The notes beneath the pieces were generated by a model, which had not been told where the DNA came from, searched no databases, and saw only the letters and a program-made list of their open reading frames with translations. From positions 1 through 64,000 of the forward strand of contig CACEBC010000011.1 in assembly GCA_902557735.1 (NCBI GenBank): DNA of 64,000 nucleotides, read 5' to 3'. Both the position numbers and the translations under genes were made by a program. The DNA comes from Porticoccaceae bacterium (GTDB lineage: Bacteria > Pseudomonadota > Gammaproteobacteria > Pseudomonadales > Porticoccaceae). Position 1 is the first letter of the stretch. Each line of letters begins with the position of its first letter. Shown piece after piece: positions 16,381 to 29,273 of the stretch.

Positions 16381-16887
16381 GTGGCATTTGATATTACCAT
16401 AAATGGCAAAGCCCAAAAGGTTGAAGCAAGGCCAGATACGCCCTTACTATGGGTTCTCAGAGACCATATGCAATTAACGGGGACCAAGTTTGGTTGTGGA
16501 ATTGCCCAGTGCGGCGCATGCACCGTGCACCTTGATGGAAAACCCGTAAGATCATGCGTCTTGCCTTTACGCGCAATTGCGGGAAAGGAAGTTGTCACGA
16601 TTGAGGGCCTCCAATCTAAAGAGGGTAGAGCGATTCAGGCTGCTTGGGAGGAGCTATCAGTTGCTCAATGTGGATATTGCCAATCGGGTCAAATTATGGC
16701 GGCAGCAGCACTCCTAGCGGATATTCAGGAGCCAAGTGATAATGATATTGATGCAGCGATGTCGGGTAACATCTGCCGCTGTTGCACCTACCAGAGGGTT
16801 CGTCATGGAATAAAGTCTGCTTCAAAAAAAATGAATTCTAAGGTGGCAAAATCAGATGCAAGTATTGAGGGCGCTCAAGTTGTATAA
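16381..16887 (+). CDS. Molybdenum hydroxylase small [2Fe-2S] subunit (IorA type), copy 2
   Basis: A 168-residue paralogue of the protein at 11762. First cluster ligands are Cys39, 44, 47 and 59; second cluster ligands are Cys97, 100, 132 and 134. Unusually the last motif is C-R-C-C, with an additional Cys135 where copy 1 has Gly. Start is GTG 16381 after an AAGG. The C-terminal tail overlaps the large-subunit gene by 32 bp, so production of the two chains is coupled. It should shuttle electrons from Mo-pterin to an unidentified periplasmic or cytoplasmic acceptor. Confidence 0.92.
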
Positions 16888-19048
16888 ATCTGACCTTTCC
16901 AGAAGGGACTTTATTAAAAAAACCGTTAAACTTGGGGCTGGATTAACTTTGGCAGTTTCGCTCCCCTCGGCCCCCGAAGCATTGCTCAACCCAGCCTTTT
17001 TGGGCGTCTCCTCTGCTGAGAATCCCATCAACGCTTTTGTGAGTATAGGTCTAGATAATAGTGTTAAAGTTATTATCAAGCATATAGATTTTGGTCAGGG
17101 CACTTTCACTGGTTTGGCAACAATTTTAGCAGAGGAAATGGATGCTGCTTGGGATCAAATTGTTTGTGAGTTTGCCCCTTCAGATAAAACGCGATATGCA
17201 AATCTCCTCTCTGGAGCTCAAATGACCGGTGGAAGTACGGCGATTGCCAACTCATATATTCAAATGAGGGAGGCGGGAGCTAGTGCTCGGCAAATGTTGA
17301 TCGATGCCGCGGCGGCAAAATGGGATGTGCCCCGAGAGCAAATTATTGTAAAGCAGGGGATCCTGTCGCATTCAAATGGTTTAAATGCAACGTTCGGGGA
17401 ACTGAGTCAGTTGGCTGCAATGCAACCCCTCCCCGAGAAAGTCAGTCTCAAAGATTCAGGTAATTTCAGCTTGATTGGAAAAGCTGGTTTGTCCAGAAAA
17501 GATCTGGGCAAATCCGACGGGACTGCTATTTTCACGCAGGATTTTAAAATGGACGGCCTAATGACAGCTGTGGTGGCTCATCCGCCTCGTTTTGGAGCGA
17601 CAGTTGCCTCCTTCGATACCAAGCGTGCTCTTGGGTTGCCTGGTGTGATTGAGGTGGTTGAAATACCGAGTGGTGTCGCTGTGCTCGCCGACACGTTCTG
17701 GAGTGCCATAGGTGGGCGTGATGCACTAGATATCGATTGGGACACCAGTTCGGCAATGGAGGATGGTTCTGTTGAACTGATGCGGAGATACAAAGAGGCT
17801 GCTAGAGGAGACGGAGCGATAGCAAAAAAGATTGGGGATAATTTAAGAGGATTTGCAGAGGCTGATATAATAGTAGAGGCGGAATATGAATTCCCTTTCC
17901 TTGCGCATGCAAGCATGGAGCCCATGAATTGCGTTGCACGATTGTCATCCGAAGGTATAGAAATGTGGTATGGGTGTCAGGGGCCTACGATGGACCAGTA
18001 TGCGGTAGCCAGTGCTCTAGATATTCAACCAGATAAGGTTAAGATAAACACTTTGTTCGCAGGTGGAAGTTTTGGACGAAGAGCGAATAAGGATTCGGAT
18101 TTCGCGGTAGAAGCAGCCCTGATAGCAAAGACAGTCAAATCAGATTCACCGATCAAATTGGTCTGGACTCGCGAGGATGATATGCGGTCTGGCTATTTTA
18201 GGCCGATGTATTTCCACAAAATGAGAGCAGGCCTAAATGCACAGGGAAAAATTGTAGCTTGGGAGCATAAAATTATTGGCCAATCAATTACCTCTGGCAC
18301 GGCATTCGAAGCGAAAGCCATTAAAAATGGCGTTGATCGCTCTTCTGTCGAGGGTGCACTAGAACTTCCCTACGACTTTGAAAATGTTTCTGTGCAATTA
18401 AAAACAATGGAAGCACAGGTGCCCGTCTTATGGTGGCGATCGGTCGGGTCCTCTCATACAGCGCATGCGGTCGAGACGTTTATGGATCAATTGTCACATG
18501 CCGCAGGTTTGGATCCGTTACAATTTCGATTGATGCACTTAGGAGACGATCAGAGGTTTGCTGGAGTTCTCGACTTGGTTGCAGATAAAGCTGATTGGAA
18601 TAATGATCGATCGGGTGGGCGTATAAAGGGCATAGCCGTTCATAAGTCCTTCGGCACTTATGTTGCGCAGGTTGCTGATATGGAGGAAACCAAGGCTGGA
18701 AAATATTGCGTTAAAAAAGTGGTATGCGCAGTTGACTGTGGTCTCGTTATAAACCCCGATATTGTCAAGGCCCAAATGGAGGGAGGCATTGGCTTCGGTC
18801 TGTCCCCAACTCTGATGAGCGCTGTGACGATTGAGAAAGGTCGAGTTGTTGAGACCAATTTTGACTCTCATCGCGTGCTTAGGATGAAAGACATGCCAAA
18901 CATTGAAACCCATATTGTTTCGTCATCCGAACCGCCAACAGGTGTTGGTGAGCCTGCCACGCCGGTCATCAGTCCTGCTGTTGCCAACGCGTTGTTCGCA
19001 AAGACACAGGTTGTGCAGAGTCGATTGCCGTTGAATCTGGATGTGTAA
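16856..19048 (+). CDS. Molybdenum hydroxylase large subunit (IorB type), copy 2
   Basis: A 730-residue Mo-binding subunit related to that at 9564. It begins with a Tat signal ([17 protein letters not shown], residues 13-29), pointing to periplasmic action. [13 protein letters not shown] is the Mo-cofactor loop and [17 protein letters not shown] carries the catalytic Glu. The shared MEPMNC/MEPPNC and [18 protein letters not shown] stretches with copy 1 show recent common ancestry but clear divergence, so substrates may differ. The neighbouring XdhC and MocA-like genes would supply and insert the mature cofactor. Likely reaction: hydroxylation of a heteroaromatic or aldehyde; not provable here. 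Confidence 0.9.
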
Positions 19049-19223
19049 TTTTGAATTTCGGCTTGGGGAATAGAGAGGCACATACAAATTTTTCACATCA
19101 AACCAATTATGGGCTACAGCCCTCGCAGATCTGAGACCTCAGCTTACGTTTCTTCTCTTGCGGTTGGTTGATCATTTGGATCAGTTAAATTCTGTCCGAG
19201 AGGTGGTTTAAATTAGCCTTCAA

Positions 19224-20246
19224 TTGCTTGACTTATTAAACGCATGGCTGCCAGAGCGAAATCAAGATCGTTGGGTGCTGGGAACTCTTTATTCGACCAC
19301 TGGTTCCGTATATCGAAAAGCAGGAGCTTTAATGCTTTTTGGCAGCTCTGGTCAGAGGCTTGGAATTTTGAGCGGGGGATGTTTGGAGGCAGATATAGCG
19401 ACAAATGCGCGCAAAGTCTTGGCCTCCGGTCGAGCAAAAAAACTCATGTATGACGGCAGTGACGAAGATGATCTGGCGTTCAGGATGGGCATTGGGTGTG
19501 GGGGATGCATATATCTGTTTTTGCAAGAGATCAATCAAGATAATAACTTCTTGAGTTTGCTAGAACTCCATAAAGTCCTCGAGAACTCAAGAAAAGCTAT
19601 TTTCTGCCAGCTAATCCCGGAGGAAGGGGAACCGACAAAAGCAAAGGTCATTGATCCATCACTCGGGGTCCCTCCAGAATTTAAATCGGTTATCCCAAAG
19701 GCAGGTTCGCATGTCATCATGATTAATGGCTCATGCTGGAGCATCACCGTAGCAAATCCGCCGCCCTACCTTCTAGTTGTGGGCGCAGGAGTTGATGCGC
19801 AACCAGTTGTCGCAATGGCGGCTACTCTTGGATGGAGAGTGCTGGTATGCGACCCGCGTCCAGCTAATTCGCGGCGTGAATTCTTCCCTGATGCGCATAG
19901 TCTTTTGAGATGCAACCCCGGTGAGTTGCTCGAGCACCAGCTAGCTGACAAAATCGATGCAGCAGTCATTATGAGTCATAGCATTAGCCTCGATGCTGAG
20001 GCTATGAATAGTGTTTCGAGGATGCCGCTAAGATATCTTGGATTATTAGGCCCAATCAATCGTCTCGAGCAAGTAATGAAAACCGCCGGTTTGAAGAGAT
20101 CAGATCTGCCAGTAAATCTGAGCGGTCCAGCTGGGTTGTCACTCGGTGGGGATTTACCCGAGAGCATCGCATTGGCAATAGTCGCTGAGTGCCACGCCGC
20201 ATTGCACTCGGCAGATGGCCTCAGCATCAGTGGAGTTCTGAGGTGA
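19224..20246 (+). CDS. XdhC/CoxI-family molybdenum-enzyme maturation factor
   Basis: The 340-residue protein has the two XdhC domains: an N-terminal XdhC/CoxI part (STTGSVYRKAGALM, ILSGGCLEADIA with the conserved GGCLE) and a C-terminal Rossmann domain starting LLVVGAGVDAQPVVAMAATL (about 185) that ends near AIVAECHAALHS. XdhC binds sulfurated Mo cofactor and delivers it to xanthine-dehydrogenase-type apoenzymes. It follows the second large subunit by 175 bp and precedes the cytidylyltransferase-like gene by 16 bp. Start is TTG 19224; an alternative a few codons upstream is not excluded. Confidence 0.9.
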   Translation: MLDLLNAWLPERNQDRWVLGTLYSTTGSVYRKAGALMLFGSSGQRLGILSGGCLEADIATNARKVLASGRAKKLMYDGSDEDDLAFRMGIGCGGCIYLFLQEINQDNNFLSLLELHKVLENSRKAIFCQLIPEEGEPTKAKVIDPSLGVPPEFKSVIPKAGSHVIMINGSCWSITVANPPPYLLVVGAGVDAQPVVAMAATLGWRVLVCDPRPANSRREFFPDAHSLLRCNPGELLEHQLADKIDAAVIMSHSISLDAEAMNSVSRMPLRYLGLLGPINRLEQVMKTAGLKRSDLPVNLSGPAGLSLGGDLPESIALAIVAECHAALHSADGLSISGVLR

Positions 20247-20262
20247 ATAGGCCAAAACAATT

Positions 20263-20826
20263 GTGAGCATTGGGGTTTTGCTTTTGGCAGCAGGACGAAG
20301 TCGTCGGTTTGGGCAAGATAAACGGTTAGCGCTGCTCTCAAATGGGAAGACTATTATTCAAACGACGATTGACCAGATTAAAATTTCCGGCCTACCATTT
20401 AAAATTTGTGTGGCTAGCGATGATGTGCTTGTTTCCGAGAAATTCCAATGCGCTGGGGCGGAAATAATATTTTGTAGCCGTTCTCATCGCGGTATTGGAG
20501 CCACTCTATCTGAGGGCATTGAGGCCGCTGCGCATTGGCAAGCTACGTTGATTGCTCTAGCGGACATGCCGTGGGTAGCATCTTCAACCTATCTCACTCT
20601 ATCAAGAGCTGCTTCCTCCGACTCGATATGTGTTCCAGAATTCCGCGGATCACGCGGGAATCCGGTGGCTCTAGGGTCATCTTTTTATCCCGAATTGCGA
20701 GCATTAGATACCGACATCGGGGCTCGCCAAGTGTTAGAAAAATGGCAAAATGAGCACCTAAGACTGATTCCCGTCAATGATGCTGGGGTGCTGCGAGATG
20801 TTGACACTCCGCAAGATGTTATTTGA
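20263..20826 (+). CDS. MocA-like molybdenum cofactor cytidylyltransferase
   Basis: A 187-residue nucleotidyltransferase of the MobA/MocA family. LLLAAGRSRRFGQDKRLAL (residues 6-24) is the nucleotide and pyrophosphate loop, LADMPWV the metal-binding region, and RGNPVALG the product-binding region. MocA attaches CMP to Mo-molybdopterin to give MCD, the cofactor form used by many xanthine-dehydrogenase-family enzymes, which suits the two IorB-type enzymes here. Start is GTG 20263. Assignment as CTP- rather than GTP-dependent is by context and motif, not proven. Confidence 0.85.
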   Translation: MSIGVLLLAAGRSRRFGQDKRLALLSNGKTIIQTTIDQIKISGLPFKICVASDDVLVSEKFQCAGAEIIFCSRSHRGIGATLSEGIEAAAHWQATLIALADMPWVASSTYLTLSRAASSDSICVPEFRGSRGNPVALGSSFYPELRALDTDIGARQVLEKWQNEHLRLIPVNDAGVLRDVDTPQDVI

Positions 20827-20925
20827 ATAATTTTCAGTAACCCCTCAGGATTCACAGCGCAATATATGGTCCGGCATATGAAGTTCCCTAAAATGTATCA
20901 GCTGATTTGATTTTGTTATATTCTG

Positions 20926-20941
20926 ACGGGAAATCACCCGT
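20926..20941 (+). promoter_or_regulatory. Hairpin just upstream of moaC ribosome site
   Basis: ACGGG-AAATCA-CCCGT is a perfect 5-bp stem with 6-base loop, followed immediately by GAGGAAG, the moaC ribosome site. A TATATT element lies just before it. The layout would allow control of moaC translation. It does not have the complex fold of the known moco riboswitch motif, as far as I can judge by eye. Confidence 0.3.
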
Positions 20942-20953
20942 GAGGAAGTAACC

Positions 20954-21439
20954 ATGTCGCAGTTAACTCATTTAAACGCCGCAGGGGAAGCCCATATGGT
21001 GGATGTTTCTGAGAAGGAAATTACCAGTCGAACTGCAACTGCCCAGTCTGTAGTGCAACTCTCGCCGAGGGTCATTGCTGCGATTTCGAGTGAGACACTT
21101 GCTAAAGGTGATCTGTTCGGTGCTGCCCGAATCGCTGGCATACAAGCCGCGAAAAAATGTAGCGAACTGATTCCGCTGTGTCATGCTTTGCCGCTGACGA
21201 AAATCGCTGTTGACATAGAGATTGTTAACGACTCAATCGTTATTAAAGGTTTATGTAAAACCAATGCGGTAACAGGTGTCGAAATGGAGGCTTTGTCAGC
21301 TGTTTCTGTAGCAGCTTTGACGATTTATGATATGTGCAAGGGTTTGGACAAAGGCATCACAATTCGTGATGTAAGGTTGTTAAGCAAAACGGGCGGTAAG
21401 TCAAGCGATTGGTCTTCGGAGGAAAATAGTTTTGATTAA
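20954..21439 (+). CDS. moaC: Cyclic pyranopterin monophosphate synthase MoaC
   Basis: A 161-residue enzyme that, with MoaA, converts GTP to cyclic pyranopterin monophosphate, the first intermediate in Mo-cofactor synthesis. [17 protein letters not shown] near the start, the active-site [13 protein letters not shown] (about 74-86), [20 protein letters not shown] and [10 protein letters not shown] are all strict family markers. The ATG is preceded by GAGGAAG. moaA is not in the window. The stop overlaps the moaD start by 8 bp. Confidence 0.97.
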
Positions 21440-22583: not shown

Positions 22584-23423
22584 ATGATTATACGGCTAAT
22601 TTTTGCGCTTATCGGACTTGGGATCTCGATTCTTGGGGAAGAATTTCTCTCGCAACTCGTCTTCGATCGGGAGGGCGACCAGGGAAATTTAGTTTGGGTA
22701 AACGAGAAACCGATAACTCTTCCGCAAGCCGAAATTGGCTCAATGTACCTTTTCGGTAAGACCTTTGATAGCATCGATCAGCTTGAACGTGATTCCTTGA
22801 CTCAGGTATTGATAAATGAGGAGTTATTGATACAGAGAGGCGAAACTTTGAAAATTCCGAACCGAGATATAGGTGTTCGAAAGAGCTTGGTGTCGGCCAG
22901 TATTCGGGATATAACGAGCAAATTTGATGCAGTTCCAGTCTCTGAGAGAACGCTAAGGAGTTTTTTTAGTGAGCACCAATCCATCTTTGAAAAGCCGCAA
23001 AGGATGGCGCTTGACGTCATAGTTTTGGCCAAACAAGCGGACTTGAGGCGGGCAAAATCATTGATAGCGGCGGGTCGCGATTTAAGTGAAATCGCCAAGA
23101 TTTTGCGGCTCAATTTTGCCATGCCACGAGGCCTTCAAACGTTACCAATTATTTATCGACAACTTGGTACTAAAATAGCAAGCTTCGCTGAGGTATTGGA
23201 GACAAGACAAATTTCGCCCCCAATCAGAGGTTCGGGAGGAGTTTATTTTTTGCAGCTGACGGCAACCGAAGATGCGCTCCTGCCCTCGTTTGATGACGTT
23301 AGAGACATCGTTAAACAGGAGTACAGGCGGAGGGGAAGAGAATTAGCTTTGCGGGAACAGATCGATCTACTGGCAAGTGAAGCGGATATTAAAACCATGA
23401 TCATGTCGGCAAGTCATAAATGA
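22584..23423 (+). CDS. Parvulin/SurA-like peptidyl-prolyl isomerase
   Basis: A 279-residue protein with an N-terminal hydrophobic anchor (IIRLIFALIGLGISILGEEF), a SurA-N-like helical part (SLTQVLINEELLIQRGE, about 72-88) and a PpiC-like C-terminal domain (about 145-245, including VYFLQLTATE). Such proteins fold or chaperone exported polypeptides on the periplasmic face of the membrane. The parvulin active-site residues are poorly conserved by eye, so it may be chaperone only. ATGA overlap ties it to the next gene. First gene of a four-gene cassette. Confidence 0.78.
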   Translation: MIIRLIFALIGLGISILGEEFLSQLVFDREGDQGNLVWVNEKPITLPQAEIGSMYLFGKTFDSIDQLERDSLTQVLINEELLIQRGETLKIPNRDIGVRKSLVSASIRDITSKFDAVPVSERTLRSFFSEHQSIFEKPQRMALDVIVLAKQADLRRAKSLIAAGRDLSEIAKILRLNFAMPRGLQTLPIIYRQLGTKIASFAEVLETRQISPPIRGSGGVYFLQLTATEDALLPSFDDVRDIVKQEYRRRGRELALREQIDLLASEADIKTMIMSASHK

Positions 23424-23890
23424 ACGCAGAGACGAACACGAACAACTTGAAAGCGGTTGCTTTTCTTGTTTTCACATCAACTATTGGCCTAATACTTGGG
23501 TTAGTTTCATCAGAAACAAAGTTTTTTGTCAAGGGCATTGAAGCGGGCTTAGCTGCAACGATAAATGGTTCAGAAATTTATAAGGTCGACTATGAGCGTG
23601 CTGTCTCATTATTTGAGAAAGGGAGAAGAGACAGAGCATCATTAAAGGACAGACAAATGATTCTTGGCCGCTTGATTGATGAAGAATTGTTGTTTCAATA
23701 TGCAATTGACCGAGATTTGCTGAGGAGCGATATGAATGCTCGTCGGACCATCCTTCAAGCTGTGGTAGGAGGTCTCGAGGTAGGCGAAGAAGCACTGAAT
23801 CAGACTCATAGCAAGTATAAATTGATAATATTTCAAGATTATCTGACTAAACTACGTGAGACGGCTACCATTTATTTGGATGAGAATTGA
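23420..23890 (+). CDS. Membrane-anchored SurA-N-like protein
   Basis: A 156-residue protein with one N-terminal hydrophobic segment (AVAFLVFTSTIGLILGLVSS) and a helical domain resembling the N-terminal part of SurA/PPIases: ATINGSEIYKVDYERAV followed by RQMILGRLIDEELLFQYAI. There is no isomerase domain. The same RLIDEELL/VLINEELL motif occurs in the upstream PPIase, so the two may form a chaperone pair. Overlaps both neighbours by 4 and 1 bp. No named family recognised. Confidence 0.72.
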   Translation: MNAETNTNNLKAVAFLVFTSTIGLILGLVSSETKFFVKGIEAGLAATINGSEIYKVDYERAVSLFEKGRRDRASLKDRQMILGRLIDEELLFQYAIDRDLLRSDMNARRTILQAVVGGLEVGEEALNQTHSKYKLIIFQDYLTKLRETATIYLDEN

Positions 23891-25128
23891 TGAGAGTTTC
23901 GGATAGCGTCAAGCCCATAGTCTTTCTGCTTGCTTTGCTGATAGTGCCGCCTTTGGAGGCTCATAATCGCAGTCAGTCCTTTTCCACCTGGTCGTTTGAA
24001 AACAAAAAGCTTGATTTGGTATTTACTGTTAAATCGAGGGAGGCGACAAGACTACAATCAATTTATGAGCTAAATGTCGAGGACTCCATAACGAGACATA
24101 TCCTAGAAACTGTTAAAGTCGCGCAGGGGTCGGGGGTTTGTCATCTTGATAAAGCCCTCAAGCCTGAGGCCAGGGTTGTAAGTCAGGCAAATATTTCAGT
24201 ATCAGTGACTTTTAACTGTCCTTTAAATTTAAACTCTTCCATGCTAGATATTGAAGTTGGCAGCTTTTTTGGCTTGATCCCCTCTCATACGCACTATGCG
24301 CGAATCTTATTTAATAACTCACTTCCTATGGAACATCTATTCACTGACAGCAATCGGGTTTGGGAGTTTTATCTGCAAAATAATCATAATAATAAGTTGT
24401 CCAGTAGGACTCTTCTAAACTTTATGTCTATTGGTATCAAGCATATCCTCAGTGGTCTTGATCACATCATGTTTTTGCTTGCCCTTTTGCTAATGCTGCC
24501 CAACCTGCGAGGTCTGATTTGTCTGGTGAGTGGATTCACAGTCGGGCACAGCGTGAGCCTCTGTTTGGCTACCTTTGGCTTTGTAGCGCCGGACAGTTTA
24601 AGAATTGAAGCTCTAATTGGGTTCACAATTGCATTGGCGTCTGCAGAGAGTGTTGGGGTCCGACACAATGTAATGAACCAAATCGCCCTTGGGTCAATAG
24701 TTTTTTTGAGCCTGCTGATGGTTATATTAAATTTTTCGGCTCAAGAGATGACGATGTCTACCATAAGTCTTTTCGGCCTCATGATATTTTCTTGGAATTA
24801 TCTTCAGCTTGATGACATTAGCGAGGACCGGTTGTCCTTCAGAACGGCAGTTTGCCTCGTTTTTGGTCTTGTGCACGGTTTTGGATTCGCAACCGGGCTA
24901 AGCGAGCTTGGATTGCAATCGGAGGGGATTTGGATGCCTTTGCTGGGGTTCAATTTGGGTGTCGAAATCGGTCAGCTTTTGATTGTTCTTTTTGCTTGGC
25001 TTTTTTATATTTTGTTGAGGGGGTACAAATTAATTTATCGAGCCAGTATAGAAATATGCTCTGGGGTAGTCTGCGGCGCGGGAGTCTATTGGTTTGTTAT
25101 TCGCAGTCTCACACCGCTAGTTCGTTAG
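23890..25128 (+). CDS. HupE/UreJ-type membrane protein with extracytoplasmic N-domain
   Basis: A 412-residue protein. A signal peptide (residues about 8-26) leads into a ~150-residue beta-rich domain outside the membrane, then six or seven helices of HupE/UreJ type: GIKHILSGLDHIMFLLAL, FTVGHSVSL, and FGLVHGFGFATGL, which hold the family's conserved His/Asp. HupE/UreJ proteins are linked to nickel or cobalt uptake in hydrogenase and urease operons; neither enzyme is present here. ATG 23890 is preferred to TTG 23887. Metal transport for the adjacent DUF3604 protein is an inference. Confidence 0.85.
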   Translation: MRVSDSVKPIVFLLALLIVPPLEAHNRSQSFSTWSFENKKLDLVFTVKSREATRLQSIYELNVEDSITRHILETVKVAQGSGVCHLDKALKPEARVVSQANISVSVTFNCPLNLNSSMLDIEVGSFFGLIPSHTHYARILFNNSLPMEHLFTDSNRVWEFYLQNNHNNKLSSRTLLNFMSIGIKHILSGLDHIMFLLALLLMLPNLRGLICLVSGFTVGHSVSLCLATFGFVAPDSLRIEALIGFTIALASAESVGVRHNVMNQIALGSIVFLSLLMVILNFSAQEMTMSTISLFGLMIFSWNYLQLDDISEDRLSFRTAVCLVFGLVHGFGFATGLSELGLQSEGIWMPLLGFNLGVEIGQLLIVLFAWLFYILLRGYKLIYRASIEICSGVVCGAGVYWFVIRSLTPLVR

Positions 25129-25177
25129 CCAATAAATGGATTATTATACCCGTGACTTCATGGACTAGAGATTCACT

Positions 25178-27460
25178 GTGGTTATGAAACGATCTAGATT
25201 ACTCTTCGTAGTAGGTATTTTTACTGTGACTGTCCTATTTTTTTTCACAGGAGCAGCGCCAGACGGTGTCTACAAAATAATTCCAGGGTATTTTGCTGAT
25301 CCAAATCGGATGTGGACAAAGACGCCGCTTGATGAAGGAAGCGAGAGTAAGCCTTATCTTCCTGAAATTCTGCTGGAGCAAAGAGCGATTCAGCGGGCTC
25401 GTCATGACAAGCAGATCCTATTTGGCGACACGCATGTTCACACCACAAACTCAGCAGATGCTTTTATGTATAGTCTGCCCATGATGCATGGGGCGAGTGG
25501 TGCTTACCCTCCTGCTTATGCCTGCGATTACGCGCGTTTCATTTCGCAGCTTGATTTTTTCTTCTTAACAGATCATGCGGAAAGCTTTGTGCCAAAGCAA
25601 TGGCGGGATTCGATCGAATCAGTTCGTCAATGCAATCGTTTGGCTGGTGATCCGCTAAATCCTGACCTGGTGGCCTTCATCGGATGGGAATGGACTCAGG
25701 TGGGTGGGACTGCCGAAACTCATTTTGGGCATCACAATGTCTTATTCAAAGATGACAATCCAGAATTGCTGCCGACTCGGCCAATTGCTGCGGCTGGCGT
25801 AGGCGTTGCAACAGTGGCTGCTCGATCGTCTTCGGCTCGTCAGTCAGCTTTACTCGGCATTCTAGATCCTCGGCATCGTGATTATTATGCCTCATACAAT
25901 GACTGGATTATGCAGATGGCTTCTGTACCTCCCTGTGAGCTTGGAATTCGTAGCCCAGACCTTCCACCAGATTGTTTTGAAACTGTCGCTACACCGGGGC
26001 AATTATTTGGCAAGCTTGACGAATGGGGATTCGATAACATTGTGGTGCCTCACGGCACAGCTTGGGGTTTTTATAGTCCTCCTAATTCAAATTGGACACA
26101 TCAACTCACAAAAGAGAATCATGATGAACAACGAGTGGGTCTTATCGAAGTTTATTCGGGGCATGGGAATTCTGAACCGTTCAGAGACTTTGCTGCGCGG
26201 GTTAAGGACGAGGAGGGTGACTGGATCTGTCCGGAACCGCAAGAAAACTATTTGCCTAGTTGTTGGCGAGCCGGTGAAATAATTCGTGATCGGTGCTTGC
26301 TAGAGATATCCGCGACTGAGGAGTGCGATGCCAGAGCTATTCGTGCTCGTCAGAACTTTGTGAATGTTGATGGCATCTATGGCCACATGACAGTGCCAGG
26401 CGCGACTGCAGCGGACTGGATCGACTCGGGTCAGGCACGGGATATATTTTTACCGGCCTTTAACTATCGCCCAAAGAAATCAGTGCAGTACGGATTGGCA
26501 ATCAGTAACCTGAAGGATCCCATGAATCCTTTAAGAAATCGTTGGGGATTCGTTGCATCTACTGACACGCACTCTGCGCGTGCTGGACACGGCTTCAAGC
26601 AAATCCATCGACTCCATAACACTGATGCTACAGGCGTGCGCGACCCTTTCTGGGGTAAAGTTTTTTCAAGCACTGCAAAGCTAAGCGGGTATGCCGCTGA
26701 ATCCTTGTCGGCGGATGAGATAGATCCAGGTGCAGCAAAACTCTTTGCATCTGAATTTGAGCGCGCCACATCATTTTTGAGCGTTGGCGGCATTGCTGCG
26801 GTCCATTCGGTTGGACGGGATCGAGAGGCGATCTGGGATGCAATGAAACGACGGGAGGTCTATGGTACCAGCGGTGCTCGAATTTTGTTGTGGTTTGATT
26901 TGATTGACCTAGAAGTGTTGCATCCAATGGGGAGCGTGGTTGCCAGCAAATCCAACCCGACTTTCCAAGTGAAAGCTCTGGGCTCTTATAAACAACTCCC
27001 AGGATGCCCACAATATGTTGTAGAGCAGCTTCGGAGACAGCATCTTGAAAAAATGTCTTTAGGAGAGTGTTATCATCCGTCAAAAGAACGTTATGAGATC
27101 ATCCGTATCGAAGTAGTAAAGATTCTTCCACAAAATTTCCATGGAGAGAAAGTGGCTCCTCTCATTGATGATAAGTGGCGAGTATTTGATTGCATGCCTT
27201 CGATTGATGGATGTGTTGTGACTTTTACTGATTCTGAGTTCGTCGATCAAGGTCGGGATGCCGTGTATTATGTGCGAGCGCTTGAGGAGCCCGTTCCAAC
27301 TATCAACGGTAACAACTTGAGAGTAAATTTTGATTCAAACAGTCAATCCGTGCAGTCCGACGGATGCTTTGGAGATTATCGAATAGATTCCAGTGACGAT
27401 TGTCTTGAAATGGCCAGCCAAAGAGCATGGTCATCTCCAATTTTTGTCGATTTTAAATAA
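25178..27460 (+). CDS. DUF3604 protein, PHP-like metallohydrolase fold predicted
   Basis: A 760-residue protein with an N-terminal anchor or signal (LLFVVGIFTVTVLFFF). FGDTHVHTTNSADA (82-95), FFLTDHAE (128-135), WEWTQVG and DTHSARAGHGF (about 463) are spaced His/Asp clusters similar to PHP-type phosphoesterase metal ligands. DUF3604 proteins are large, mostly exported, and lack an assigned substrate. Many Cys residues (CNRL, PDCFE, CEP, CWRAG, CLLEIS) suggest disulfides in an oxidising compartment. GTG 25178 or ATG 25184 may be the start. It closes the four-gene cassette and is 19 bp before an SDR gene. Confidence 0.85.
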   Translation: MVMKRSRLLFVVGIFTVTVLFFFTGAAPDGVYKIIPGYFADPNRMWTKTPLDEGSESKPYLPEILLEQRAIQRARHDKQILFGDTHVHTTNSADAFMYSLPMMHGASGAYPPAYACDYARFISQLDFFFLTDHAESFVPKQWRDSIESVRQCNRLAGDPLNPDLVAFIGWEWTQVGGTAETHFGHHNVLFKDDNPELLPTRPIAAAGVGVATVAARSSSARQSALLGILDPRHRDYYASYNDWIMQMASVPPCELGIRSPDLPPDCFETVATPGQLFGKLDEWGFDNIVVPHGTAWGFYSPPNSNWTHQLTKENHDEQRVGLIEVYSGHGNSEPFRDFAARVKDEEGDWICPEPQENYLPSCWRAGEIIRDRCLLEISATEECDARAIRARQNFVNVDGIYGHMTVPGATAADWIDSGQARDIFLPAFNYRPKKSVQYGLAISNLKDPMNPLRNRWGFVASTDTHSARAGHGFKQIHRLHNTDATGVRDPFWGKVFSSTAKLSGYAAESLSADEIDPGAAKLFASEFERATSFLSVGGIAAVHSVGRDREAIWDAMKRREVYGTSGARILLWFDLIDLEVLHPMGSVVASKSNPTFQVKALGSYKQLPGCPQYVVEQLRRQHLEKMSLGECYHPSKERYEIIRIEVVKILPQNFHGEKVAPLIDDKWRVFDCMPSIDGCVVTFTDSEFVDQGRDAVYYVRALEEPVPTINGNNLRVNFDSNSQSVQSDGCFGDYRIDSSDDCLEMASQRAWSSPIFVDFK

Positions 27461-27479: not shown

Positions 27480-28277
27480 ATGCCAACTGCTCTTGTAACA
27501 GGGGCTTCTGACGGGATAGGTAAGGAATTTTGCAATGTCCTGGCTGAGCGAGGTTATAGCCTCATTTTGGTTGCCAGGCGCAAGAAAAGATTAGAGGATC
27601 TGGCAAATCGATTAATAAAAGGTTTTGGCATCAATTGCAGTACTATCAGCCATGACCTCGCGAAGCCTGAGGCTGCTCGTGAATTATTTGACTCGGTTTC
27701 CGAAATGGGTCTCTCTGTCGATTTTCTAGTTAACAATGCGGGTTTATTACAGAATGGCTTCTTCAAAGACATCGATCTGGCCACACAAGAAAACATGATA
27801 ATGGTAAACATAATGAATTTGACTGCACTTACGCACCTTTATGCGAAAGATATGGCTGAAAGAAGATCCGGTCACATACTCAATGTTGCGTCCCTGGCGG
27901 GAATTATGCCCATTCCAAACCAAAATGTTTATGCAGCATCAAAGGCATTCGTGCTGTCATTCGGTCGCGCACTTCATAATGAGATGCAAGCTCAGAAATG
28001 TGATGTAATTATAACGACCCTTTGTCCCGGTTACACCGCGACGAAGATGATGGATAATCCAGACCAGGGGGCAAAGCTTGCCATTCCTATAGCAATGATG
28101 CAAGCGCCAAGAAAGGTTGCTGAGGAGGGCATAACCGGCTGTCTTGCCGGAAAAGATATGGTCATTCCCGGTATCGTGAACAAAATATACTCGATTTTTG
28201 CAGGTTTGTTGCCAAACAAGTTTTTGATCCCTGCCTTAGGGCGATTTTACAGGGCGAATATGACACCATATCAATGA
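27480..28277 (+). CDS. SDR-family NAD(P)-dependent dehydrogenase (DltE-like)
   Basis: A 265-residue SDR: TGASDGIG at residue 7, VNNAG at about 85, catalytic YAASK at about 150, then the PGYTATKM segment. The layout (TGASDGIGKEF..LAERGYSLILVARRKKRL) is that of the DltE/YqjQ-like subgroup, usually acting on hydrophobic ketones or fatty alcohols. It follows the DUF3604 gene by 19 bp with AGGAGG upstream, and precedes an epimerase-type gene by 18 bp, so a transcript may run through all three. Confidence 0.88.
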   Translation: MPTALVTGASDGIGKEFCNVLAERGYSLILVARRKKRLEDLANRLIKGFGINCSTISHDLAKPEAARELFDSVSEMGLSVDFLVNNAGLLQNGFFKDIDLATQENMIMVNIMNLTALTHLYAKDMAERRSGHILNVASLAGIMPIPNQNVYAASKAFVLSFGRALHNEMQAQKCDVIITTLCPGYTATKMMDNPDQGAKLAIPIAMMQAPRKVAEEGITGCLAGKDMVIPGIVNKIYSIFAGLLPNKFLIPALGRFYRANMTPYQ

Positions 28278-28295: not shown

Positions 28296-29273
28296 ATGGC
28301 AGATTCAAAACAGAAGAGAATCCTGATTACCGGTGCAAATGGATTTATTGGCGGTGCTTTGATGCGGCATTTTGAGGCCAATGATATATCACCAATTGGC
28401 ATTGATCTGGTTGGGGCTGGTGAAAATATTCTGGCTGAAGATATCTCCAAACCAGAGACTTTTTCTGCTGCGCTTGACGAATGTGACGTGTTAATTCACT
28501 CGGCTGCACTTGTCTCCAACGCGGCATCTGATCCAGATATGTGGAAAGCCAATGTATTGGCAACCAAACGGCTGGCAGAGGCAGCGGTAAAGTATCGTGT
28601 AAGGCGATTTATCCATATTTCGTCAATTGTTGTTTACGGAAACACAGCTGAGGGCGAGTTAGATGAAACACATCCAGTGCATGGCAATGGTGGCAGTTAT
28701 GTTTTGACCAAGTTAGCAGCCGAGCACGCGGTACTTGCCAGTGCAATAAACAGCTCGATGGAGACAGTCATCATTCGGCCGGGCGATGTTTATGGGCCTG
28801 GAAGTCGACCATGGGTGGTACTTCCAATCGAAGCGATAAAGAAAAGCCAGTTTATTTTGCCAGCCTATGGTCGGGGATATTTTCGACCTATTTATATAGA
28901 TGACCTTGTGACAGGTATTTCACAAGCAGCTTCAAAGGAATCTGCTGCGAATGAAATCTTTAATATGTCTTGCAAGGGCTATATTTCGACTAAGGAATTC
29001 TTTAGTCATCATTTTAAATGGATGGATAAACGAGGTCCTGTTTCAGTTCCAACTCCCATTGCGCTGCTTTGCGCATCGGCAGCCACAAAAATAGCAAAAC
29101 TCTCAGGCGAAGTTAGTGAAGCGTCAAGAGCCACAATGATGCAGTTATGCACGAAGAACTGGTTTAATATTTCAAAGGCTGAACATCTTCTTGGCTGGCG
29201 GCCGGAAATGTCTCTGGATGAGGGCATGAACCTGTCAAGAAGTTGGGCCCTGCAAAAGGGGCTTTTGGACTAA
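28296..29273 (+). CDS. NAD-dependent epimerase/3-beta-HSD-like extended SDR
   Basis: A 325-residue extended SDR. TGANGFIGGALMRHF (residues 11-25) is the NAD loop, IHSAALVSNAA follows, and YVLTKLAAE holds the catalytic Tyr/Lys at about 136-140. RPGDVYGPGSRPW is the substrate-side motif. Such enzymes act on nucleotide sugars, but this style is also found in 3-beta-hydroxysteroid dehydrogenase/isomerase-like proteins. The neighbouring acyl-CoA ligase and TonB receptor favour lipid or steroid-like substrates, not sugars; that is context only. Confidence 0.83.
   Translation: MADSKQKRILITGANGFIGGALMRHFEANDISPIGIDLVGAGENILAEDISKPETFSAALDECDVLIHSAALVSNAASDPDMWKANVLATKRLAEAAVKYRVRRFIHISSIVVYGNTAEGELDETHPVHGNGGSYVLTKLAAEHAVLASAINSSMETVIIRPGDVYGPGSRPWVVLPIEAIKKSQFILPAYGRGYFRPIYIDDLVTGISQAASKESAANEIFNMSCKGYISTKEFFSHHFKWMDKRGPVSVPTPIALLCASAATKIAKLSGEVSEASRATMMQLCTKNWFNISKAEHLLGWRPEMSLDEGMNLSRSWALQKGLLD

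Follow-up and report, generated by a model that had tools for sequence, protein, structure and literature searches.

What does a HupE/UreJ-type permease serve when neither hydrogenase nor urease genes accompany it? The question is raised by the window analysed here, a stretch of 64,000 nucleotides from a metagenome-assembled genome (MAG) of the SAR92 clade (Porticoccaceae; 1.95 Mb, 69% complete), in which the permease gene is packed together with genes for two chaperone-like proteins and for a member of DUF3604, a widespread family without known function. A first-pass annotation had read positions 22584 to 27460 as a self-contained envelope system, in which the permease supplies metal and the two chaperone-like proteins fold an exported metallohydrolase. 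We found that DUF3604, a parvulin-type protein and HupE/UreJ_2 form a recurrent core, that the usual partner of this permease subfamily is DUF3604, and that the predicted model of the DUF3604 protein has a PHP-phosphoesterase fold. On architecture the first-pass annotation proved largely correct; its interpretation stands in part.

The four genes, encoding a peptidylprolyl isomerase-like protein (PPI), a SurA_N-like protein, HupE and DUF3604, are real open reading frames, all on the + strand and tightly packed, and their coordinates agree with the overlaps of 4 and 1 bp and the 49 bp spacing annotated before. PPI and the SurA_N-like gene overlap by 4 bp (ATGA); HupE starts at ATG 23890 (1 bp overlap, TGATG) or at TTG 23887 (4 bp overlap), and DUF3604 at GTG 25178, 49 bp past the HupE stop at 25128, or at ATG 25184. 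Each of the four products also begins, as had been claimed, with a hydrophobic signal or anchor, judged by eye. The features of the cassette are as follows.

22584..23423, + strand: PPI, membrane-anchored protein with a SurA_N region and a parvulin (Rotamase_2) domain, PpiD/PrsA-like, active-site His replaced by Tyr
23420..23890, + strand: SurA_N-like protein, anchored chaperone domain without parvulin, paralogue of the PPI N-terminal half
23890..25128, + strand: HupE/UreJ_2 permease with an extracytoplasmic, metal-binding-like (anglerase-type) N-terminal domain
23962..24378, + strand: extracytoplasmic domain of HupE, predicted mature N-terminus His26
24442..24465, + strand: HX5DH motif of the HupE permease
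25178..27460, + strand: DUF3604 protein of the divergent SAR92 type, in its own clade, 760 aa, with N-terminal anchor and 14 conserved Cys
25406..26878, + strand: predicted PHP-fold catalytic domain of DUF3604 (residues 77-567)
26879..27457, + strand: C-terminal Ig-like beta-sandwich of DUF3604 (residues 568-760), with many Ig-like PDB matches

The last product matched the DUF3604 profile (PF12228) with 90.6 bits in four stretches, against a gathering cut-off of 20.4. A model built with AlphaFold2 from 60 homologues had a predicted local distance difference test score (pLDDT) of 72 and a predicted template modelling score (pTM) of 0.77. Its best fold matches were 3e38 (Z 17.5), 2anu (Z 16.4) and PsfC 7rty (Z 13.3), followed by EndoQ and the PHP domains of Pol III, over a background of Z about 8 for unrelated structures; the modelled fold is thus that of a PHP phosphoesterase. 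Nine residues (H86, H88, D94, H133, E171, H185, H292, D463 and H465) were identical in 60/60 homologues with 22-86% identity to the window protein, and E324 and E333 likewise. The nine, assigned as ligand candidates from residue order and knowledge of PHP enzymes rather than from model geometry, presumably match, in order, the nine metal ligands of PHP enzymes such as YcdX. A resemblance of the His/Asp clusters to PHP ligands had been proposed from the start, with structure prediction as the check; the His and Asp of GDTHVHT, TDHAE and STDTH are indeed identical or nearly so in the 60 homologues, and the fold and the invariant expected ligands bear the proposal out. Together, the fold and the ligand pattern (HxH, H, E, H, H, DxH) point to a predicted metal-dependent hydrolase of the PHP superfamily.

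The protein has its fold and His/Asp/Glu ligand pattern in common with the PHP phosphoesterases 3e38 (BVU_3505), 2anu (TM0559) and PsfC, but unlike them it appears to be exported, its PHP domain is large and rich in inserts, and it ends in an Ig-like sandwich, a common fold that implies no function. Membership in the CehA/McbA metallohydrolases (NF038032), which include carbaryl and oxamyl hydrolases, was rejected, since the window protein scored 19.9 bits, far below the curated cut-off of 80; the likeness to that family consists of weak profile matches (19.9 and 21.9 bits) to parts of the metal-motif region.

A neighbourhood survey, set beforehand as a test of the cassette, revealed that its gene order is kept. 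Among 26 related loci (L009-L034), the order PPI-SurA_N-HupE-DUF3604 was intact in all 15 SAR92-type loci with sufficient sequence. One proteobacterial MAG (L026, 755-10319) has the arrangement DUF3604-PPI-DUF3604-SurA_N-HupE-DUF3604, with three DUF3604 genes interleaved with the chaperone genes. In a distant set of 46 loci (L035-L080), found through DUF3604 similarity alone, PPI lay directly upstream of HupE and close to DUF3604 in 18, and these came from six phyla: Pseudomonadota, Bacteroidota, Thermodesulfobacteriota, Planctomycetota, Cyanobacteriota (one MAG) and Nitrospirota. The SurA_N-like gene was found only in SAR92-type cassettes among the loci compared, and the recurrent core consists of DUF3604, the parvulin-type protein and HupE/UreJ_2. 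Its recurrence in at least six phyla points to a shared function. The cultivated genera Microbulbifer and Ruegeria have the main-type cassette.

The partners are also associated by genome. DUF3604 was found in 33 of 58 relatives, 31 of which also have HupE_UreJ_2 (Fisher p 1.5e-5), and 31 HupE loci in these relatives lay within 6 kb of a DUF3604 gene, where about one was expected from gene numbers and genome size, using one average genome size. A parvulin gene adjoined HupE at 21/32 HupE loci in genomes with DUF3604 versus 0/35 in genomes without it (p 1e-9; class and relatives samples), but these loci were taken from search matches, not randomly drawn, and the kinship of the genomes makes them non-independent, which leaves the p-values no more than indicative. 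Among the 11 unpaired HupE loci in DUF3604 genomes, three (L134, L146 and L175, the last cut off at its upstream end) score like cassette HupEs. A hydrogenase or urease partnership was also considered and rejected, no such genes being among the neighbours annotated. The earlier statement that HupE/UreJ normally sits with these enzymes fails for this subfamily.

Trees of the two proteins give a similar picture, although long branches leave the exact placements unsure. In a DUF3604 tree made by a quick method, a very long branch separates a type containing SAR92 (also L086, L087, L141, L142, L147 and L148) from the main type, and in the HupE tree the divergent SAR92 HupEs group with L141, L142 and L146 (L146 shares its genome with L147). 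Of the two cassettes in genome G082, L140 has a DUF3604 and a HupE that each group with L135, and the two proteins of L141 each fall with the SAR92 type. That the trees agree speaks for each cassette being inherited as a unit, with its partners apparently co-diverging.

The two DUF3604 types differ in cysteine content. The "many Cys" noted earlier proved to be 14 positions common to SAR92-type proteins (13 of them in 18/18 sequences and one in 17/18), whereas main-type members have no Cys at any of these positions. The conserved Cys, a further difference from the PHP phosphoesterases compared, suggest up to seven disulfides and hence a periplasmic location. DUF3604 N-termini are Sec-like, lipoprotein-like or anchors, with Tat-like motifs rare. 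Export by Tat, under which metal imported into the cytoplasm would be of use, was considered and rejected: four loose RR matches were found in 60 N-termini, mostly at doubtful starts. Judging from these N-termini, export looks to be by Sec rather than Tat in almost all members. No significant sequence match to PDB entries was found for one main-type DUF3604 or for the DUF3604 profile. In the genome of the window itself, one main-type DUF3604 gene (L005/L006, G000:C8:6460-8194) is interrupted by one TGA into open pieces of 505 and 186 aa; the other main-type copies there are whole or cut by contig ends.

HupE belongs to HupE_UreJ_2 (PF13795; 134.3 bits in two stretches against a gathering cut-off of 24.5). 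In SAR92-type members an added segment separates the two halves of the Pfam domain, seen both as the two-piece match and as an alignment insert. With residues numbered from TTG 23887, the motif HX5DH of HupE/UreJ nickel permeases is present as H186-ILSGL-D192-H193 and is invariant in 34/34 aligned proteins, as are H221, H330 and E360. In the predicted model (pLDDT 82.8), residues 27-164 form an exported domain, and the membrane part is helical. Comparison of the HupE profile with PDB sequences gave no significant match, whereas the modelled exported domain matched zinc-bound ZrgA (8f1b, Z 12.2), PA4063 (7bgo, Z 10.4) and copper-bound Ang-1 (9gce, Z 9.6; root-mean-square deviation 3.0 over 120 residues, 15% identity), ZrgA scoring higher than Ang-1. 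The predicted mature N-terminus, with the cleavage site judged by eye (..LEA|HNRSQ), is His26. The SAR92-type sequences all have His at this position (17/17), and the other members have either His (12/17) or Asp (5/17). A metal-handling role of HupE is strengthened by the predicted likeness of its exported domain to ZrgA, PA4063 and Ang-1.

Proteins of the Ang-1-HupE/UreJ-2 kind were named anglerases by Franco Cairo et al. 2025 (PMC12537917), who proposed that they capture and take up metal, passing it on to the cytoplasm, and who reported Kd values of RbAng-1a of 74 nM for Cu2+ and 220 nM for Ni2+. RbAng-1a (PDB 9GCE) and the window HupE have the two-part layout, the PF13795 permease, the His after the signal peptide and the exported fold in common, but Asp takes the position of His1 in some HupE members of the cassette. 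ZrgA and PA4063, the latter with His-rich loops (PMC8561739), differ from HupE in being soluble periplasmic zinc-binding proteins unfused to a permease. The anglerase neighbours listed in PMC12537917 are DUF4198, indigoidine-synthase-like and PfkB genes; neither DUF3604 nor parvulin is among them, and neither term occurs in its main text.

The label PPIase, given to the first gene from the sequence, needs modifying. The product contains a parvulin domain (PF13145, Rotamase_2; 43 bits against a gathering cut-off of 27) behind an anchor and a SurA_N region, and its matches to PpiD/PrsA-type NCBIfam profiles fall far below cut-off. The active-site His is absent: 13/13 main-type cassettes keep the His of the C-terminal G-x-H motif, which is replaced by Tyr in 15/15 SAR92-type PPIs. 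The SAR92 type lacks the N-terminal parvulin His as well, a position mostly occupied by Gln in the other members. A parvulin domain kept without its active-site His is better read as part of a PpiD/SurA-like chaperone, and the PPI of SAR92 is probably a holdase with no isomerase activity. PpiD, too, is believed to act as a holdase. The SurA_N region and parvulin domain are common to PPI and PpiD/PrsA/SurA, and the N-terminal anchor is as in PpiD, but unlike those proteins PPI is short and tied to a cassette, has lost the active-site His in SAR92, and stands beside a second anchored paralogue without parvulin. That second protein scored 27.1 bits with SurA_N_3 (PF13624; cut-off 27.2). BLAST of PPI against it gave no match, whereas profile-profile comparison aligned it to the N-terminal region of PPI (98.3%, E 2.6e-14), by which it is a parvulin-less paralogue of the N-terminal half of PPI.

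The model that fits best, and to which we give an even chance, is that of a chaperone-assisted periplasmic PHP hydrolase with a dedicated metal-capture permease. Gene order, conservation, co-inheritance, the modelled PHP fold, the invariant ligands and the exported-domain fold were computed directly; export route, chaperone role, metal transfer and substrate class enter the model by inference. DUF3604 would be synthesised in unfolded form, pass through Sec and, in SAR92, stay tethered to the inner membrane through its N-terminal anchor. PPI and the SurA_N-like protein, themselves anchored, would receive the emerging disulfide-rich hydrolase, while HupE/UreJ_2 would catch a divalent transition metal on its exported domain via the N-terminal His and serve the metal needs of the module, either by hand-over to the apo-hydrolase in the periplasm or by movement across the membrane. 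The PHP domain may then hydrolyse an organic substrate that carries an ester of the phosphate, sulfate or carbamate type, with the product processed in the cytoplasm by the enzymes encoded downstream. The narrower proposal, that the parvulin-type chaperone and the anglerase permease together fold and metallate exported DUF3604, the exported domain passing metal directly in the periplasm, seems to us rather doubtful.

Several observations weigh against the chaperone-assisted model. Characterised HupE imports nickel into the cytoplasm, and the published metal flow of anglerases also ends there, on the wrong side; with DUF3604 exported by Sec, imported metal would not reach the enzyme directly. 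If HupE only imports, two routes are left: a periplasmic hand-over of metal by its exported domain, or the recovery by HupE of metal that the action of the enzyme sets free. In the class sample, 4/15 DUF3604 genomes have no HupE_UreJ_2 match, so HupE is not strictly needed, and 83/117 DUF3604 genes in the relatives are not next to HupE, which would then have to act in trans. Confidence in the DUF3604 model is also middling (pLDDT 72), with low-confidence loops.

The direction of known HupE import, like that of the anglerase model, suits a different reading, in which a TonB-dependent receptor brings in a metal-bound organic ligand, DUF3604 cleaves this ligand, and the exported domain of HupE catches the freed metal, which HupE imports to serve the cell rather than the enzyme. 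A TonB-dependent receptor gene does lie directly upstream of PPI in nine SAR92-type loci (L011, L013, L019, L020, L025, L030, L031, L032 and L034). The window and its closest relatives L009 and L010, however, have TauE and molybdenum-enzyme genes there instead, outside SAR92 the neighbours include sulfatases and various hydrolases, while the top families contain no metallophore genes, and the downstream genes suggest carbon catabolism; such metal scavenging is in our judgement unlikely. Metal transport by the cassette HupE might also have been lost or changed, leaving a membrane platform or a carrier of the DUF3604 substrate or product. The divergence of SAR92 HupE, the insert in its Pfam domain and a partner that is a hydrolase rather than a known nickel enzyme would all suit this, but the residues invariant in 34/34 proteins and the metal-binding relatives of the exported domain make it improbable.

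We give equally little credit to an ordinary catabolic cluster whose genes lie together solely to be co-regulated, with no coupling by metal or by physical contact. Genes for a short-chain dehydrogenase, an epimerase, a CoA ligase and a TonB receptor are indeed nearby, and many DUF3604 genes are unlinked to HupE, but DUF3604-PPI-HupE survives in six phyla despite differing other neighbours, and its partners diverge together. The extent of the block needs one amendment: the four genes stand as placed, but the co-directional block runs past 27460, with one further gene 19 bp after DUF3604 and a second 18 bp after the first.

27480..28277, + strand: short-chain dehydrogenase/reductase (SDR) directly after DUF3604 (PF00106, 157.7 bits)
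28296..29273, + strand: NAD-dependent epimerase / 3-beta-hydroxysteroid dehydrogenase-like oxidoreductase (PF01370, 106.4 bits)

In SAR92-type loci the SDR and then the epimerase gene follow 3′ of DUF3604 where the contig continues; L026 has no SDR gene. With these two genes in the block, and four DUF3604 genomes without HupE_UreJ_2, "self-contained" was too strong a description. The sulfatases, SDR, epimerase, CoA ligase and TonB receptors nearby suggest catabolism of an organic ester. In a scan of 78 neighbour proteins of distant DUF3604 genes, nothing but sulfatases stood out (6/78), too few to name a substrate. Promoter and terminator scans gave matches no commoner than in shuffled sequence.

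In the open literature on DUF3604, PF13795 and HupE with peptidylprolyl isomerase, a scope outside which most subscription journals lie, the cassette was not described, and DUF3604 was named in one paper, in a table. The module is a new combination of known families and seems not to be described in those papers. Linking DUF3604 to a PHP fold, a chaperone of its own and an anglerase permease makes one testable module out of three separate annotations. DUF3604 thereby becomes a likely partner enzyme of the anglerase permeases, which were described only recently, and the module is a natural setting in which to study how metalloenzymes that are exported acquire the correct metal.

Other genes were seen around the cassettes. 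In two distant cassettes checked, a Phenol_MetA_deg-type outer-membrane protein is encoded between DUF3604 and PPI (L067:8694-9692 and L070:9798-10886). At L144 (G069:C2:46141-46476), a 333-aa frame contains a short DUF3604 N-terminal match (profile 3-54) adjoining a partial HupE_UreJ_2 match, and could represent a gene fusion, a relic or a match by chance. In several SAR92 loci (L011:12088-16459, L013:12100-16555) the SDR and epimerase genes are followed by a divergent AraC-type regulator, a GlcD-like FAD-linked oxidase and a protein resembling glycerol-3-phosphate dehydrogenase, which together recall the metabolism of ether lipids or glycerolipids; in the window a CoA ligase and a TonB receptor are encoded there instead. 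Upstream in the window, 16856-21439 encodes a molybdenum hydroxylase subunit (MoCoBD domains), XdhC, a MobA-like protein and MoaC, a block of oxidoreductase and cofactor genes which, among the loci seen, is kept in L009 and L010 only.

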